A stretch of DNA of 64,000 bases, taken from the NCBI RefSeq assembly GCF_013032505.1, contig NZ_WQCG01000002.1, positions 558,001 through 622,000 on the forward strand, written 5' to 3'. Source of the DNA: Ruegeria atlantica (GTDB taxonomy: Bacteria > Pseudomonadota > Alphaproteobacteria > Rhodobacterales > Rhodobacteraceae). Below are positions 47,871 to 53,884 of the stretch, one piece after another. Within the stretch, counting starts at the first letter, position 1; each line of letters begins with the position of its first letter. The notes beneath the pieces are model-generated. The model was not told where the DNA came from. It saw only the letters and a program-made list of their open reading frames with translations, and ran no database searches. The translations under genes were made by a program, and so were the position numbers.

Positions 47871-49037
47871 ATGAAGGATCCAGCCGTTGCCGAGATTATT
47901 CTTCAGGCTTACTCTTCCGCCCATGAGCCCGCTGCCTGGGCAGAAGTACTGAATCGTCTCACCGAGCGCTATAATGCAAATGGGGTAATTATCTGGGAAT
48001 GGAGCGGTCATGGTGTTTCGCGCATACTTAGACCCGTCATGTTCTCCAGTTATTATCGGCGCGAAGCTCTTGAGGACTACATTAAGCGACATCAGAAATC
48101 TGAGTTTTCCGACCAGCTGGAATTCGAACAAATGTCGCTACAATATGGCCACTTGGCGCCAGATCGGGTTGATCTTGTCAGCGAGCAGGACCTCTACCCC
48201 GTCGAAGACGAGTATCTCGCAGCGCCCCATGTAAAGGAAATGCTAAGCCATGGGATCCGCCATCGCTATGGGGCTCTTCTAGATCGCGACAATCCTTTTC
48301 GCTCTCGATTTTCTTTACAGACGAGTGAAGAACGCGGCCACCTTGCCCCCGAGGAGGTGGCAGAATTGGCAGCCGTCCTGCCGCATTTAGCGAAGTCGAT
48401 GGAACTGTCGAACGCCCTGAACGCGTACAAATCCGAGCACGCCGTATTTCTTAAGGCCTTCGACCGCTTGAACGTTGGGATTTGTATTCTCGATGCCGGT
48501 TCACGCGTGGTCGCAAAGAACGAGGAATTCAACCGACAACTGAATGAGTTTGATGCATTTTGGCTGTCCAGAGACGCTAGGCTGGTTTTGCATGATCAAG
48601 CCGACCGGGGCCGCTTTGACGACCTTCTGCAGGATTTTCGAAATCATGGAGCATTTGGCGCGCGGCCGCGAAAGGAAGCCATTCTTGTCAACACTCGGGG
48701 CAAGGCTGGCGCGTTGTGTCTCGAACTGCTGCCGCCCACCGATCTTTTGGAAGAGGGAACAACGCACAATCACCTTGCCGTTCTCATTAGCAGAGACACG
48801 TCTCTTCCTATCCAGGTTGACGTGAAAAGCGCCAAGAACGCGTTTCAGCTTACGGGCGCCGAGGCGCAGGTGTTGGAACTTGTGTGCAGCGGACTGACCA
48901 ATCCAGCCATCGCCGAACAGCGGGACCGCTCGGTCGAAACTATCAATGCGCAGGTCAAGACGGTTCTGGGAAAGACCGGCACGGCAAACCGTACGCAATT
49001 GGTGCGCTTGATGTGCAATTTTCCTCAAGTGATTTAG
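47871..49037 (+). CDS. LuxR-type transcriptional regulator
   Basis: A 388-residue protein. The C-terminal 60 residues form a LuxR/GerE helix-turn-helix: FQLTGAEAQVLELVCSGLTN, then AIAEQRDRSVETINAQVKTV. The central part (about residues 195-300, FDRLNVGICILDAGSRVVAK) looks like a PAS-type sensor, a layout common in alphaproteobacterial LuxR 'solo' proteins. The N-terminal 180 residues are unassigned; no autoinducer-binding domain (with its W-Y-D-P-W residues) is recognisable, so an AHL ligand is not supported. It lies 115 bases before the catalase-like and cyclooxygenase-like genes on the same strand and is the natural candidate for their regulator. Confidence 0.87.
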   Translation: MKDPAVAEIILQAYSSAHEPAAWAEVLNRLTERYNANGVIIWEWSGHGVSRILRPVMFSSYYRREALEDYIKRHQKSEFSDQLEFEQMSLQYGHLAPDRVDLVSEQDLYPVEDEYLAAPHVKEMLSHGIRHRYGALLDRDNPFRSRFSLQTSEERGHLAPEEVAELAAVLPHLAKSMELSNALNAYKSEHAVFLKAFDRLNVGICILDAGSRVVAKNEEFNRQLNEFDAFWLSRDARLVLHDQADRGRFDDLLQDFRNHGAFGARPRKEAILVNTRGKAGALCLELLPPTDLLEEGTTHNHLAVLISRDTSLPIQVDVKSAKNAFQLTGAEAQVLELVCSGLTNPAIAEQRDRSVETINAQVKTVLGKTGTANRTQLVRLMCNFPQVI

Positions 49038-49152
49038 CTGGCGGGTGCATGGGCCAGCATCCCCATATCTGGGGATGACAGGCTGCGTGCAACACGTAAC
49101 ATGTTATGAAAATTTGAGAAATGGGAGAATACTAGAAGGGGGGATTTTCATT

Positions 49153-50523
49153 GTGGAGGACCAGAAGACCAAGGTCAGTCAAAAAAAATCCGGGTCAGAG
49201 CAGCTAATCGAACGGTTGGTAAGCACCCTTATTGCAGTTGGCAGGTTTCTGGGGCTGGTCTGGGCGCCCAAATCACGCCACGAACGGGATTATTCGGATG
49301 CTGCAAAAGTCCCGGACGGAGCGGACGACGCATTTGTCCCCGTCACGGAATTCAGAGACTCGGATGAGGGCGAACTTTTTAACGACGTCATGACTGCGTT
49401 TTCCCAGGACTGTCTTGCCTATGCAAAAGGCAGCGGCAATGACCCTGATCACGAAGACAAACACTGGGGATATACGAAAGGGCTGGTCGAAGGCACCTTA
49501 GACATTACCGGCGTGCAGAGCCTGCCCGAGGAATGCCAGGTCGGATTGTTCCAGAGCAATGGCACTTACGAGGTCATTGCCCGGCCCAACTTTCTGAGAG
49601 ACAAAGAACTAATCAAGGTCAGCCGGCTGTCGCTCAAGATCAAAACCGGTTTTGACGTACCGAATGTCTACACGCTGGACCACACAGCGCCTGAACTGGA
49701 TTTACTTTTCTCTGAAGGTATCCGCCAAGGGGATACAGAAAGCAGAGATCAAGACGGGCAAGGTTTCTTTTTTCGGGATGCACGTCAGTTGCGTTATTTA
49801 GCCGGATTTGCGAGCAGACCGGTCAAGTCGGCGTTTTCACTGCTGCAAAAATCGAATGGCGATGTCTTTGTTTGCCAGCGCGCCATCATGTCTTCCGCAC
49901 TGGATCGGCTTTATACCGCACAACAGTCTCGGAAAAATTGGGCGGAAAAAGACTACTACTCAGCTGGACCGTACAGGCTGGGCAATGTCCTTATAAAATA
50001 CGCATTGCGCACCCGTCAGGAAAGCCAGGCGTCGACACGCTCATCGGGATCGGGCTCACCGGCAAAGGATCAAGGCGCGTGGTTCAACGAGTGGAAAGTT
50101 GCGGGCGAACCTGCGATTTTCGATCTGTGTATCCAGGTTGCGCGATTTGGGGCAATTCCAACGTCAGCCACAGGGCAAGGAAATCCATGCAAGGCAGTCA
50201 TGGCGACCGAATTTACAGATTTGGTCTGGGATGAGGATATATCGGAATTCCAGACCGTCGGCACATTGACGCTGCAACCTGCCTCTAATCGCTCGGATCC
50301 CTGGTATTTTGCCGGACGCGATCGCTGGTACCCTAGGCACGTAACGCAGGTTCCGGCTCTGCGCTTCAACGCATGGAATACGCTTCCAGACATGGAGCCA
50401 GTGGGGCAGTTGTTCCGCGCCCGTAAGCAAGTGCACGCCCATCACCGGGAAACGCGTTTGCGTCATACATTCAACGCGCAGAACGACCCTCAGGCATTTT
50501 GCCCGTTCCGCCGGCCACCCTAG
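49153..50523 (+). CDS. Catalase-like heme protein (y4iL-like/catalase-related)
   Basis: About 456 residues from a GTG at 49153 after a GGGGGG SD. The chain follows the catalase-related fold of the y4iL-like group: DKHWGYTKGLVEGTLDI near residues 103-119 holds the expected distal His, PEECQVGLFQSNGTYEVIAR the next strand, YYSAGPYRLGNVLIKYALR the barrel core, and RFNAWNTLPDMEPVGQLFRA the heme-proximal region. There R-A-R-K-Q-V-H has His where relatives have the proximal Tyr (R-A-R-R-x-V-Y). This suggests altered heme ligation or loss of function. It precedes a cyclooxygenase-like gene by 111 bases. In corals, cyanobacteria and others, catalase-related proteins convert fatty-acid hydroperoxides rather than H2O2; such a role fits the neighbour. 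Confidence 0.8.
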   Translation: MEDQKTKVSQKKSGSEQLIERLVSTLIAVGRFLGLVWAPKSRHERDYSDAAKVPDGADDAFVPVTEFRDSDEGELFNDVMTAFSQDCLAYAKGSGNDPDHEDKHWGYTKGLVEGTLDITGVQSLPEECQVGLFQSNGTYEVIARPNFLRDKELIKVSRLSLKIKTGFDVPNVYTLDHTAPELDLLFSEGIRQGDTESRDQDGQGFFFRDARQLRYLAGFASRPVKSAFSLLQKSNGDVFVCQRAIMSSALDRLYTAQQSRKNWAEKDYYSAGPYRLGNVLIKYALRTRQESQASTRSSGSGSPAKDQGAWFNEWKVAGEPAIFDLCIQVARFGAIPTSATGQGNPCKAVMATEFTDLVWDEDISEFQTVGTLTLQPASNRSDPWYFAGRDRWYPRHVTQVPALRFNAWNTLPDMEPVGQLFRARKQVHAHHRETRLRHTFNAQNDPQAFCPFRRPP

Positions 50524-50634
50524 ACTTCAACCCGTCGCTCCAACGGATCTGCGCCCAACCCGGATTTACTCTTCCAGAGTTTCCCCCGGCCCATTCGCGA
50601 CCAACCGAAACAGGAACAGGCAGGAGGTATTTCG

Positions 50635-52551
50635 ATGAATGATTTTACCTACGGCATTAAAGCGTACTTACATAGCAATCGCAGCTATCCCCTGGATGTC
50701 CTGCGCAGTATTTGGGATGCGCTGAAAGCTATTATTAAAGTTCCCTGGGTTATCGTAAGCATTGTGGTTTCGCCGCTCTTATCCATCCTGGCGGGGCTAG
50801 TTAAGAGGTTTGCACCTGGCCTTTGGAAACGACTGTTGCGCCCGGTCTGGGTTCGCAACTTATTCTCGCGCTTCACAATTGGCGTGTTCGGAAACGTTAC
50901 TCCACCGCGCCCGCATGCGTTTTCAATGCGAAAACCATACCCTCATTGGACGGGTATGGTGGCCCGCAATTGGACAGGTCGACACCTCCCGCCACAAATG
51001 GGATCCGAGCGTACCCGCCCAAGCCTTGACGAACTTGAGCACCTTTTCCTTCGACCCGTACCCACAGGCGCACAGATTGACGATGTACGCTCCAACCTGC
51101 TGTTCGCATCTTTTGCGCAGTGGTTTACAGACAGCTTTTTGCGTACCTCACATAAACTCCGATATGACAGTTCGGGAAACACGCAGGTCACACCCGATGG
51201 GACCTTGCGGAGGGGCCGACTTGAAGTTCAGCAGAATGGGCAGGCGCGTTATCGGCCGGACCACCACAGAGAGCGTGAAAACGACTCAAATCACGAGATC
51301 GACCTCTGCCAGATCTATGGAATGAATGCTGAGCAAACAAAGATCCTGCGGTTTTTGCCTACTGACAGTGGTTACGATGCAAGTTTGCACAAAGGCACCC
51401 TGAAATCGCAATGGATCAACGGTGAGGAGTTTCCGGCCAAGCTGCTGGAGGACGCACCTGCCGTCCCGAAGGATCAAAAAGACACAAGGCCTCGAACGCC
51501 TCTGAAATTTGATCCAAAGTTTGTCGATCTTTACGAGGACGAGAAACTGCTGAGAACGATATTTGCAAGCGCGATCAACAATCCTGAAGGGTATAACTCG
51601 TTGTTTGCCTGCGGATTAGAGCACGGAAACTCGACGCTTGGGAATTCACTCTTCAACATACTCTTTCTGCGACACCATAATCTGGTCGCGCGCAAAATCG
51701 CCGAGGGAAACCCCACCTTTGATGATGACGAGGTTTTCGAAAAAGCCCGCAATGTCATGATCGTTCTTCTGCTACAGATTGTGATCAGTGACTATGTTCG
51801 GCACATTTCACCTTTGGATCTACCCTTCAAGGTACCCCCAAGATTTGACAAGGGCCAAGATTGGTACCGTACCAACCGGATTCATTTCGAGTTCAATCTG
51901 CTTTATCGTTGGCACTCGTTGATACCGGATGTCTTTCCGTTTCTGGATGATCAAGATAAACCTGCCCGGAATTTCGCGAGTTTCCGGCACAACAACGCAT
52001 GGCTGACTGACAAAGGTTTAAAGTCTGCACTTAACCACTTTGTCGAAACGCCAGCTGGAAAGATGACTTTGGGCAATACGCCTCAAGCACTTCGCCTTGT
52101 TAAACGCGGCACACTTAAGCTAATGCGCGCGGCCGACCTTGCGGGGTACAATGATTACCGGGAACGGTTCGGACTTCATCGGGTAAAAAGCTTCGAAGAA
52201 GTGACAGGCGAAAAGGTTGTCGCCGCGGCCTTGAGGGATCTCTATGACGACAAGATCGACGACCTTGAGTTCTATGTCGGCCTCGTCGCCGAGCGACACA
52301 TACCTGGCGGAATTATGGGCGCCCTGATGTTCACCATGGTCGCGCATGACGCTCTGACCCATGCTCTGACAAACCCGTTGCTGGCCAAAGAGATGCACGT
52401 CAAACTCCGGAAAGATATGGAACCCGGGGAACACGTATTCACCCGCCAAGGGCTGAAGTTCATTCGCGACGTCGAAACTCTGCATGCCTTGGCCGCCAAT
52501 GTCGTATCGGACTTGGATAAGGACCGGCCTATCAGCTTTCGCAAGTCATGA
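50635..52551 (+). CDS. Cyclooxygenase-like heme dioxygenase (animal heme peroxidase superfamily)
   Basis: A 638-residue protein with a strong SD (AGGAGG). It lines up over most of its length with prostaglandin H synthases: LFASFAQWFTDSFLRTS, IDLCQIYGMNAEQ, LFLRHHNLVARKIAEGNPTF, ISDYVRHIS, FNLLYRWHSLIPDVF and YNDYRERFGLHRVKSFEEVT. The oxygenase Tyr (Y424) and the proximal heme His (H427) of Y-x-W-H are present. The distal Gln is Q162, but the distal His (FAQ-xxx-H in COX and peroxidases) is Asp166. The position of the aspirin Ser is not Ser (AHDAL). A hydrophobic segment at residues 33-56 suggests membrane attachment. It probably oxygenates fatty acids; peroxidase activity should be weak. Confidence 0.88.
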   Translation: MNDFTYGIKAYLHSNRSYPLDVLRSIWDALKAIIKVPWVIVSIVVSPLLSILAGLVKRFAPGLWKRLLRPVWVRNLFSRFTIGVFGNVTPPRPHAFSMRKPYPHWTGMVARNWTGRHLPPQMGSERTRPSLDELEHLFLRPVPTGAQIDDVRSNLLFASFAQWFTDSFLRTSHKLRYDSSGNTQVTPDGTLRRGRLEVQQNGQARYRPDHHRERENDSNHEIDLCQIYGMNAEQTKILRFLPTDSGYDASLHKGTLKSQWINGEEFPAKLLEDAPAVPKDQKDTRPRTPLKFDPKFVDLYEDEKLLRTIFASAINNPEGYNSLFACGLEHGNSTLGNSLFNILFLRHHNLVARKIAEGNPTFDDDEVFEKARNVMIVLLLQIVISDYVRHISPLDLPFKVPPRFDKGQDWYRTNRIHFEFNLLYRWHSLIPDVFPFLDDQDKPARNFASFRHNNAWLTDKGLKSALNHFVETPAGKMTLGNTPQALRLVKRGTLKLMRAADLAGYNDYRERFGLHRVKSFEEVTGEKVVAAALRDLYDDKIDDLEFYVGLVAERHIPGGIMGALMFTMVAHDALTHALTNPLLAKEMHVKLRKDMEPGEHVFTRQGLKFIRDVETLHALAANVVSDLDKDRPISFRKS

Positions 52552-52882
52552 GGCCACGCCTCTTCAGAGCCGTCATATGTTCAAAGTGCAGCAAAATACC
52601 ATTTGGGCTCGGAGTTGCCATTCTCTGTGACCAGTTCATTTGGCTGGTGGCGGGTCGCATTGGTGCTTCCTTTTAGCCCAAGCACCAAAGAACAGTGATC
52701 CGAGACTTCGGCGGCAAGCACGACATCAAAGGCGCTGACTGAATCTTCCCGGTTAATGACCAATGATGAAACGGATTGCAGCATCGACCGATGGCGCGTT
52801 CTGCAAATTATGTGGCGGGTGGTGCTATGAAATTCTTCAGCGTCTGGGACTATGTTGTGGTTGGATAAAAGGGAACACACTG
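52552..52882. other. Intergenic region after the cyclooxygenase-like gene
   Basis: A small hairpin GAGGC-CAC-GCCTC at 52550-52562 overlaps the stop region but lacks a T-run. No gene is visible. The last 20 bases hold the SD (AAGGGAA) of the AraC gene. Confidence 0.45.
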
Positions 52883-53884
52883 ATGCCAACGCCTAACCGG
52901 GTAAAGACTCCAGATGCCTTTTGGGACGCTCTTGGAACCCTCTCGATCAGTCGCGCGGCGCTGCTGCACGAGACCAAGCTTCCTCCGAGAGCGTTCGCGT
53001 CAGAGTCGCGCATGAGCACGAAGCAGCTCTTTGCGTTGTGGGAAGCGCTGCAGAAACTCGGGGGCGACGATATTGGGTTGGCTATAACACAAACCATGCA
53101 TGGGCCGACGCTGCCTCCCTCCTTTCTGGTCGCATTCCATGCCAAAAACATTGGGGAAGCCCTACATCGTGTTGCACGCTTCAAAGCACTTTGCGCACCC
53201 GAAGAGTTCCACGTGGCTATCGGAGACGAAGGCTGTGTTGTGACGACGGCTTAGACCTATGCCAAGCGGACGGAGCCTGATGTGTTGACGGAAGCCACCT
53301 TCACATTCCTTGTGAACATGGTGCGGGCTGGAACCGGGCATATGATCAAACCCAAGCTGGTCGAGCTGCGGCGTAGACCAAGCGAAGGGCTTGAGACTTG
53401 GTTCGATTGCCCGATCACGTGGAATGCGCCACACGCCCGTCTGATCTTTGACAAAGCCGATCTGGATATCCCCTTCACCAGTTACAATAGCGAACTTCTG
53501 GCGATGCTCGACGCCGCGCTTAAGGCCGAGAACACCACATCACTGACCGATCAGGTGCGCTGGCACCTGCGCCGCGCGCTGACGGCTGGTCGTCCAGAGC
53601 TGCGTAGTATCGCCAGCGAAATGGCCGTCAATGAACGCTCTTTGCAGCGACACCTCAAGAACGAAGGCCACAGCTTCAAATCACTTCTGTCGGACACCCG
53701 GCATCAATTGGCACGTGAGTATCTGGCTGAGCCGGATTTCGACATCAGCGAGATTGCATACTTGCTTGGCTACGAAGATCAGGGCTCGTTCTATCGTGCT
53801 TTTCAAAAGTGGGAACATCAGACGCCAGCCAAGTGGCGCTCCACACTACCGAAACGCCCGGACAAGGTGCCAATCCAAATCTGA
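52883..53884 (+). pseudogene. AraC-family regulator interrupted by an in-frame TAG
   Basis: From the ATG at 52883 (SD AAGGGAA) the frame encodes an AraC regulator of the Arabinose_bd (ToxT/ArgR-like) type, stops at TAG (53252-53254) after CVVTTA, and continues in the same frame with TYAKRTEPDVLTEATF through a complete C-terminal AraC helix-turn-helix (LRSIASEMAVNERSLQRHLK, then FDISEIAYLLGYEDQGSFYR). The halves add up to a normal 333 residues, and the site of the stop is a place where relatives may have Trp, so a single TGG to TAG change would explain it. The mutation is either real and recent or a sequencing error. An internal GTG restart at 53282 would keep the DNA-binding part. Confidence 0.8.

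Follow-up and report, generated by a model that had tools for sequence, protein, structure and literature searches.

Three genes on the same strand make up the locus we describe here (Table 1), which lies in a window of 64,000 nucleotides, the whole stretch of Ruegeria atlantica DNA that was analyzed. We confirmed all three open reading frames of the original prediction (47871-49037, 49045-50523, and 50635-52551). When read from its first GTG, at 49045, the gene 2 frame gives a protein of 492 aa, but the GTG at 49153 is more likely to be the start because a Shine-Dalgarno sequence, AGAAGGGGGG, lies upstream of it. Residue numbers for gene 2 are counted from 49045. The intergenic gaps are 115 bases between genes 1 and 2 and 111 bases between genes 2 and 3, and promoter and terminator counts at the locus were near or below the shuffled expectation.

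Table 1. Genes and signals at the locus, with window coordinates
Feature	Position	Strand	Evidence
Gene 1, LuxR-type (GerE HTH) transcriptional regulator, 388 aa	47871..49037	+	GerE HTH match
Gene 2, catalase-fold protein; probable length 456 aa (frame open from 49045)	49153..50523	+	profiles, alignment, Shine-Dalgarno
GGAGG Shine-Dalgarno sequence plus spacer, ahead of gene 3	50623..50634	+	sequence
Gene 3, 638 aa, predicted heme fatty-acid dioxygenase (10S-DOX/COX group)	50635..52551	+	PF03098, COX homology

The GerE HTH domain of gene 1 was found in a Pfam search at E 1.7e-8. Apart from GerE the search returned only DUF4777 and PAS_7, both far below cut-offs (E 0.2 for PAS_7), and no autoinducer-binding domain was found at E up to 1; the N-terminal part of the protein is without a recognized domain. 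With GerE and no autoinducer-binding domain, gene 1 does not look, from its sequence, like an AHL-type LuxR quorum-sensing receptor.

The dioxygenase

Gene 3 matched An_peroxidase (PF03098) at E 9.7e-38 and COX-1/COX-2 chains at a best E of 1.4e-47. A profile built from 14 dioxygenase (DOX) sequences gave 362 bits for COX-2, 114 for a fatty-acid alpha-oxidase, and about 70-75 for myeloperoxidase, and by these scores together with the PF03098 match, gene 3 belongs to the peroxidase-cyclooxygenase superfamily. The segments that had first suggested a COX-type oxygenase were located at Y424-R-W-H427, IYG 227-229, HHN 347-349, and YRERF 508-512. When aligned to COX and 10S-DOX reference residues taken from PMC13049297, gene 3 shares with animal COX-1/COX-2, members of the same sequence family, the equivalents of Tyr385 (Y424), Tyr348 (Y387), and the proximal His388 (H427), each of which was kept in 20/20 aligned sequences; W426 was also noted among the key residues.

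Unlike COX-1/COX-2, gene 3 has Asp in place of the distal His207 (D166, within AQWFTDSF 161-168; Asp in 20/20 aligned sequences), Ala in place of the aspirin Ser530 (A573), and, in a weakly aligned stretch, F85 in place of the Arg of COX-1 TVRSN. The Nostoc punctiforme 10S-DOX (B2J5P4) is described as having the distal motif F143tdsF (PMC13049297), and by the motifs described for that protein gene 3 resembles it in belonging to the COX superfamily, in its FTDSF with Asp at the His207 place, and in its Ala at the Ser530 place. The two differ in length, the Ruegeria enzyme having 638 aa with a hydrophobic N-terminal stretch (residues 38-56) and the Nostoc enzyme 542 aa. We rejected a canonical animal cyclooxygenase for gene 3 because of the distal Asp and the lack of Ser530. 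Judged by these residues, gene 3 is a predicted heme dioxygenase that is 10S-DOX-like rather than COX-like at the distal heme site, and the earlier description of a COX-type oxygenase holds for the superfamily and the segments but not for that site. An AlphaFold2 model of gene 3 made from two sequences (the window protein and that of L002, its nearest relative) had a mean pLDDT of 32.2, too low to be of use.

The catalase-fold protein and its predicted heme pocket

Gene 2 matched no Pfam or NCBIfam family, and its sequence alone found nothing in the PDB. We built a profile from ten catalase-like proteins that are not of gene 2's type (nine taken from dioxygenase loci or fusions, the tenth from a Nostoc plasmid), and this profile found gene 2 among 496 ORFs at E 5.9e-18; its 15 matches were the ten seeds, three further fusions, a relative in genome G027, and gene 2. 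The reverse profile, built from gene 2's own type, found other catalase-like proteins at a best E of 4e-19, and profile-profile comparison (hhalign) gave a 99.7 percent probability for the catalase fold. Direct hhalign comparison with three catalases of its own genome was weaker (77%), and the profile of gene 2's type alone found no catalase in the PDB. The AlphaFold2 model of gene 2, made from one sequence, had a mean pLDDT of 31.0, likewise too low. On the strength of the profile comparisons, gene 2 is a predicted divergent catalase-fold protein. The original prediction of a catalase-related heme protein was borne out for the fold; the proximal Tyr is absent.

We aligned 22 catalase-fold proteins and observed that the proximal heme-ligand column held Tyr in all 17 of the others and His in all five members of the gene 2 clade, hereafter His-type. 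The gene 2 motif reads R460-K-Q-V-H464, then R471 (the catalase pattern is RxxxY with an Arg seven residues on), and H464 stands at the place of Y353 of coral AOS. The other predicted heme-pocket residues are the distal His, H140, and R180, R460, and R471. H140 falls in the distal-His column (H67 of coral AOS), a placement that depends on a short insertion following it in the alignment. In 22/22 proteins the residue is the same in the distal-His column, at the Arg of RxxxY/H, and in two more Arg columns of the heme pocket, while E137 occupies the place of R64 of coral AOS and, by the alignment, there is no Asn at the place of the distal Asn137. Y304 (YYSAGPYRLG) was considered as the proximal ligand and rejected, because the C-terminal RxxxH464 is what fits both the residue order in the chain and the catalase RxxxY..R spacing. 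What is unusual is the His in the proximal column of this clade, with other heme-pocket residues kept, and gene 2 seems from its sequence to hold the heme iron otherwise than the known catalase-related partners do.

His-type relatives were found in 1 of 385 genomes of a class-wide draw, that one being the Ruegeria genome itself. None was found on plasmids (L094 protein as query, E 1e-10), nor did the His-type alignment find a relative in viral contigs. A search of the open-licence literature by title and abstract start found no report of a catalase fold with a His heme ligand.

Linkage of the two enzymes across genomes

To count neighbors at DOX loci, we took every stop-to-stop frame of 80 aa or more from the six reading frames of the stretches fetched, together with annotations. 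Six frames were used since longer shadow ORFs can hide genes, as in L053 and L088, and the counts were unchanged: at 22 distinct DOX loci, a catalase-fold gene lay nearby in 9, a P450 gene lay upstream in 3, and neither was present in 10. Excluded from the counts were duplicate loci (three more records from Paracoccus yeei and the plasmid record of Ruegeria SCSIO 43209), a G372 dioxygenase copy with internal stops (L068), a 182-aa catalase fragment (L097), and weaker An_peroxidase matches of other subfamilies (L032, L033, L060, L061, L069-L074, the fusions, and matches on Nonomuraea and Streptomyces plasmids). The fusions, which join a catalase to an An_peroxidase of another subfamily than gene 3, occurred at five loci of the same genus; they are close relatives and not independent rows, as are L028, L030, L031, and L058.

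Out of 13 DOX-bearing genomes, six had a catalase-fold gene of the class defined by a profile search, in each case no more than about 2 kb from the DOX, and seven had none; this class is somewhat biased because the profile came partly from DOX-adjacent proteins, though the G654 protein was not among these. The pairing of a DOX with a catalase-fold gene recurs in Alphaproteobacteria beyond chance. The co-occurrence check suggested in the original prediction thus found adjacency conserved for the class (9/22 loci) but not for the exact pair, as L002, the nearest DOX relative (49%), has no catalase neighbor. The four other genomes with a His-type catalase (G027, G260, G319, and G411) had no DOX match, nor was there a DOX in the stretches fetched from them, of which one, L096, is only 3.5 kb long. 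Among other His-type catalases, L094 and L095 have sulfatase genes nearby and L096 has a PALP gene. Rhizobium and Sinorhizobium relatives of gene 3 have a P450 gene upstream, and a title search of the open-licence literature found no work on the Rhizobium P450-dioxygenase pair.

Full-length homologs of gene 1 adjoined the catalase-like gene of G027 (42%), where there is no DOX, and the RoxA-like, catalase, and dioxygenase genes of P. yeei (34%); other matches, within the Ruegeria genome itself, covered the HTH part only. Relatives of gene 1 lay next to catalase, dioxygenase, or RoxA-like genes at 4/6 loci. Neighborhood is the sole basis for the earlier claim that a LuxR-type protein controls the pair, and a gene 1 relative was present at only 2/22 dioxygenase loci.

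A candidate oxylipin pathway and its alternatives

From the homology, the conserved residues, and the linkage of the class, we favor, with a probability of about 0.55, a two-enzyme oxylipin module that lies beside, and is probably under, a LuxR-type (HTH) regulator. The 638-aa protein would bind heme through H427, and the peroxide-activated heme would give rise to a Tyr424 radical, which would abstract a hydrogen, allylic or bis-allylic, from an unsaturated C18 fatty acid; O2 addition would then yield a hydroperoxide of the fatty acid, with C10 the most likely position by analogy with the Nostoc 10S-DOX. The catalase-fold protein would open the O-O bond of this hydroperoxide, with chain cleavage (as a lyase), isomerization, or reduction as the outcome. 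Because its predicted proximal ligand is His and not tyrosinate, this chemistry may be nearer to that of a peroxidase than to that of the known catalase-related lyases. The LuxR-type protein would turn the pair on upon a signal. The original interpretation is supported in part: an oxygenase beside a catalase fold is real and recurrent, but the middle protein has His in place of the proximal Tyr and adjacency is not conserved for the exact pair.

More tentatively, gene 2 might represent a new class, with a catalase fold whose axial tyrosinate has given way to His, a retained distal His, and a peroxidase-like heme; in Ruegeria it would carry out the second step of a 10S-DOX-initiated oxylipin pathway under LuxR control. 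Such a pathway would parallel the prostaglandin cascade, with a constant dioxygenase and a second-step enzyme that has been exchanged again and again among Tyr-type catalase, His-type catalase, and P450. If true, a COX-like dioxygenase with a second, exchangeable, hydroperoxide-converting heme enzyme would be a recurrent alphaproteobacterial design, and such pairs would be a test bed for the origin of prostaglandin-type cascades. A His-ligated catalase fold would likewise be a natural test of the role of tyrosinate in catalase and in catalase-related lyases.

A different possibility, which we consider rather unlikely, is that gene 3 is a working fatty-acid oxygenase whose catalase-fold neighbor is there by chance or has a function of its own, for example as a LuxR-governed peroxide reducer, and does not perform the second step of one pathway. 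The arrangement in G027, the sulfatase and PALP neighbors of other His-type catalases, and the absence of a catalase at L002 speak for it. Against it stand the class-wide linkage of catalase-fold genes to DOX and the case of P. yeei, where a LuxR relative, a catalase-like gene, and a DOX are also found together. We think it improbable that the change from Tyr to His at the ligand left gene 2 without heme and activity, as a lipid-binding or structural partner. The His in 5/5 clade members, the loss of the distal Asn and of the Arg that precedes the distal His, and the lack of a Pfam catalase match would all fit such a change. The distal His, the Arg of RxxxY/H, and two more heme-pocket Arg are nonetheless identical in 22/22 proteins, which would be unexpected had heme been lost. 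It is very improbable that the pair serves detoxification, burning off or repairing membrane lipid hydroperoxides instead of making signals; both proteins come from peroxide-chemistry families, but gene 3, which keeps the oxygenase Tyr and the proximal His, would be expected to make hydroperoxides and not remove them.

The pairing of a DOX with a catalase-related protein is not new to bacteria. The 10S-DOX and catalase-related hydroperoxide lyase of Nostoc punctiforme were reportedly published by Brash in 2014. The Nostoc linoleate 10S-DOX is described as working with a catalase-related 10S-hydroperoxide lyase (PMC13049297, PMC9579011, PMC9410191), which overturns the original statement that no bacterial system with such a pairing had been described. 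As in Nostoc, the catalase-related partner in Ruegeria is a separate gene, here a same-strand neighbor across the 111-base gap. Unlike the Nostoc pair, the Ruegeria pair has a partner with His instead of the proximal Tyr, an alphaproteobacterial host, and a LuxR-type gene upstream.

In a cyanobacterial catalase-heme dioxygenase fusion the catalase-fold domain is described as using the hydroperoxide made by the dioxygenase (PMC11719350), and the same is described for corals, where catalase-related domains are joined to lipoxygenase (PMC5617202); compared with both, the Ruegeria genes are separate, and His replaces Tyr353 of coral AOS. Fungal DOX-P450 fusions are likewise described as joining a dioxygenase to a second heme enzyme that acts on the hydroperoxide (PMC13049297), whereas the window locus has separate genes and a catalase-fold partner. 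The oleate diol synthase of Pseudomonas aeruginosa, PA2077/PA2078, is also described as a bacterial oxylipin enzyme pair, but of a different family, RoxA-like di-heme enzymes (PMC4496055). There are no RoxA-like di-heme genes at the window locus, and the two PF21419 matches of the Ruegeria genome lie outside the window. At other loci, RoxA-like genes adjoin relatives of gene 1 and of gene 3.

Dioxygenase type and occurrence

The three genes form a same-strand run in a host genome of 5.1 Mb, with gaps of 115 bases between the regulator and the catalase-fold gene and 111 bases between the catalase-fold and dioxygenase genes. Just 3' of the dioxygenase gene is an AraC-type gene that an in-frame TAG splits into two ORFs, with the HTH found in the second; it is either a pseudogene or a sequence error.

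Coordinates of genes in the window and at other loci (L numbers) fetched from other genomes or plasmids
Feature	Sequence	Position	Strand	Length	Remark
LuxR-type regulator	window	47871-49037	+	388 aa	first of the run
Catalase-fold protein	window	49153-50523	+	456 aa	ORF open from 49045; probable start GTG 49153
10S-DOX-type heme dioxygenase (predicted)	window	50635-52551	+	638 aa	last of the run
AraC-type regulator, split	window	52763-53884	+
Catalase-peroxidase type (PF00141)	L062	5599-7788		729 aa	142 bases 3' of the 10S-DOX-type gene
RoxA-like di-heme protein	L053	2081-3943
RoxA-like di-heme protein	L088	5749-7887
RoxA-like di-heme protein	L082	4766-6682

The dioxygenase matched Pfam An_peroxidase (E 9.7e-38), and its closest solved relatives were COX-1 and COX-2 (best E 1.4e-47). 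A profile built from 14 of its relatives scored 362 bits with COX-2, 114 with fatty-acid alpha-oxidase and about 70-75 with myeloperoxidase, which places the protein on the COX side of its superfamily. The COX residues Tyr385, Trp387 and proximal His388 have their counterparts in Y424, W426 and H427, and Tyr348 in Y387. The distal His207 is replaced by Asp (D166, within AQWFTDSF), as it is in 20/20 aligned sequences, and F85, in a weakly aligned stretch, falls opposite the Arg of COX-1 TVRSN (Arg120). The linoleate 10S-dioxygenase of Nostoc punctiforme (10S-DOX, B2J5P4) is described as having F143tdsF in place of the F205thqF of COX, and Ala in place of Ser530 (PMC13049297); the window protein resembles it in both FTDSF and Ala (A573). 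Together, the distal Asp with FTDSF and A573 argue that the predicted enzyme is of 10S-DOX type, and they rule out a prostaglandin synthase, the family with which the original prediction had aligned it. A strongly hydrophobic stretch spans residues 38-56. In such bacteria cis-vaccenic acid is the main unsaturated fatty acid, and linoleate may therefore not be the natural substrate.

This type of dioxygenase is rare. With the host genome counted each time, we found five full-length copies among 37 genus genomes, and the type in 7 of 394 family genomes and 3/385 class genomes. An extra family copy (L068, genome G372) has several internal stops and is apparently decaying.

Linkage of dioxygenase and catalase-fold genes

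A dioxygenase/catalase-related pairing in Nostoc punctiforme was reportedly described by Brash in 2014. There, the catalase-related protein is encoded by a gene separate from that of 10S-DOX and cleaves the 10S-DOX product to 1-octen-3-ol (PMC13049297, PMC9579011 and PMC9410191 jointly).

All six frames were checked in stretches of 11 to 19 kb at 22 distinct loci with a dioxygenase of this type. A catalase-fold gene was present within the stretch at nine of them (window, L028, L029, L030, L031, L051, L053, L058 and L088). Spacing to the dioxygenase gene was 15-18 bases in L028, L030, L031 and L058, and in L053 the annotated genes overlap; in L051 the dioxygenase gene comes before the catalase gene, and in L029 and L088 the two are on opposite strands with one gene between. 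A cytochrome P450 gene was directly upstream of the dioxygenase gene at three loci (L056 and L057, above the Pfam cut-off, and L052, just below it), and neither kind of gene was found at the remaining ten (L002, L054, L055, L062-L067 and L089). The P450 pairs sit on Rhizobium and Sinorhizobium plasmids and resemble a split version of fungal DOX-P450.

A catalase-like profile, A6, was also run on 13 dioxygenase-bearing genomes and on G027, a genome of the same genus as the window. Because A6 was built partly from dioxygenase-adjacent proteins (G654 was not among the seeds), the class was not blindly defined; on that footing, 6/13 dioxygenase-bearing genomes had a match, all six with one at most about 2 kb from the dioxygenase gene, and no catalase-like gene was found by A6 in the other seven. 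By our arithmetic, in genomes of 4.5 Mb the chance that a single copy lies no more than 5 kb from a particular gene is about 0.3%. A second A6-class gene in G014 is part of a fusion. Catalase-An_peroxidase fusions of 952-1014 aa, with the catalase domain N-terminal and An_peroxidase C-terminal, were identified by Pfam in all five of the same-genus genomes that carry them (L026, L027, L034, L035 and L036). Flanking the fusion at these loci are a gene of 576-587 aa, assigned as a thiamine-pyrophosphate enzyme from Pfam matches in L026 and L027 and from its length elsewhere, and one of 454-458 aa, which in L026 had no Pfam match; the three form a conserved cluster in same-genus genomes.

The catalase-fold protein and its proximal ligand

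The window catalase-fold protein had no Pfam or NCBIfam match, and its sequence alone had no PDB match. A profile built from ten catalase-like proteins of types other than the window's reached it among 496 ORFs at E 5.9e-18, the reverse, window-type profile reached other catalase-like proteins at a best E of 4e-19, and hhalign gave 99.7% between the two groups; directly against three own-genome catalases, hhalign gave the window type only 77%. When a mixed profile that included the window protein was run against PDB, it matched 3e4w at E 2e-12, a catalase at E 7e-8 and coral allene oxide synthase at E 2e-5; the window-type profile by itself reached none of these structures. The nearest relative is in G027 (41% identity). 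The window type also occurs in three further genera of the family (4/394 genomes, own counted), and a class-wide draw of 385 genomes found it in the host genome only (1/385). A clearly hydrophobic N-terminal stretch is present in 3/5 proteins of the type and is weaker in the window protein.

In coral allene oxide synthase, Y353 is the proximal ligand, R360 lies seven residues C-terminal to it, and H67, T66, N137, R64 and R102 are described as heme residues common to catalase (PMC5617202). We aligned 22 catalase-fold proteins: five of window type, nine other catalase-like proteins (one encoded on a Nostoc plasmid, the other eight at dioxygenase loci), five fusion N-domains and three own-genome proteins (one catalase, two small catalases). 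Columns H140, R180, W395, R460 and R471, numbered from the ORF opening at 49045, were invariant (22/22), and column 464, the predicted proximal ligand, was His in 5/5 window-type proteins and Tyr in 17/17 others, rows that are not all independent, the fusions and Ruegeria pairs being closely related. Compared with the coral enzyme, this His-type clade has His at the Y353 place and lacks equivalents of R64 and Asn137. Its members would either combine the catalase fold with a heme ligated by histidine or have lost heme; we favor the former, because the distal His and the arginines are kept. No paper describing a proximal His in a catalase fold turned up in a literature search of titles and abstract openings. 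The predicted histidine-type partner, together with recurrence in Alphaproteobacteria, is what is new relative to the published Nostoc pairing.

Assembly of the window pair and its regulator

Judged from the trees, the exact window pair looks separately assembled rather than inherited, since the dioxygenase grouped with L002 and the catalase-fold protein fell in the His-type clade, separate from other dioxygenase partners (long branches were flagged). L002, the nearest relative of the dioxygenase at 49% identity, has no catalase neighbor, and no dioxygenase match was found in the four other His-type genomes (G027 in the genus search; G260, G319 and G411 within the 394 family genomes). In L025 the His-type gene neighbors genes for a LuxR relative and for a peptidoglycan-binding-domain protein, in L094 and L095 sulfatase genes, and in L096, a 3.5 kb contig, a gene for a PALP enzyme.

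The domain search of the window regulator found no autoinducer-binding domain. The protein is 42% identical over its whole length to the product of a gene that in G027 runs divergently from the one for the catalase-like protein, and 34% identical to that of a Paracoccus yeei gene adjoining RoxA-like cytochrome, catalase and dioxygenase genes. Full-length relatives were found in 5/54 genus genomes. Catalase-fold, dioxygenase or RoxA-like neighbors were present at 4/6 LuxR-relative loci, three of the six having been found via catalase or dioxygenase genes and three via the regulator alone; among the latter, L082 adjoins a RoxA-like gene and L083 and L084 adjoin DUF1304 genes. Besides the window itself, L053 is the only one of the 22 dioxygenase loci with a relative of this LuxR-type gene.

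The RoxA-like proteins of L053, L088 and L082 adjoin a dioxygenase gene, a catalase-like gene or a LuxR relative, and two unrelated types of fatty-acid oxygenase may meet in one locus. In Pseudomonas aeruginosa, the RoxA-like proteins PA2077 and PA2078, also di-heme, are described as a fatty-acid 10S-dioxygenase and a diol synthase (PMC4496055), a function that fits an oxylipin role.
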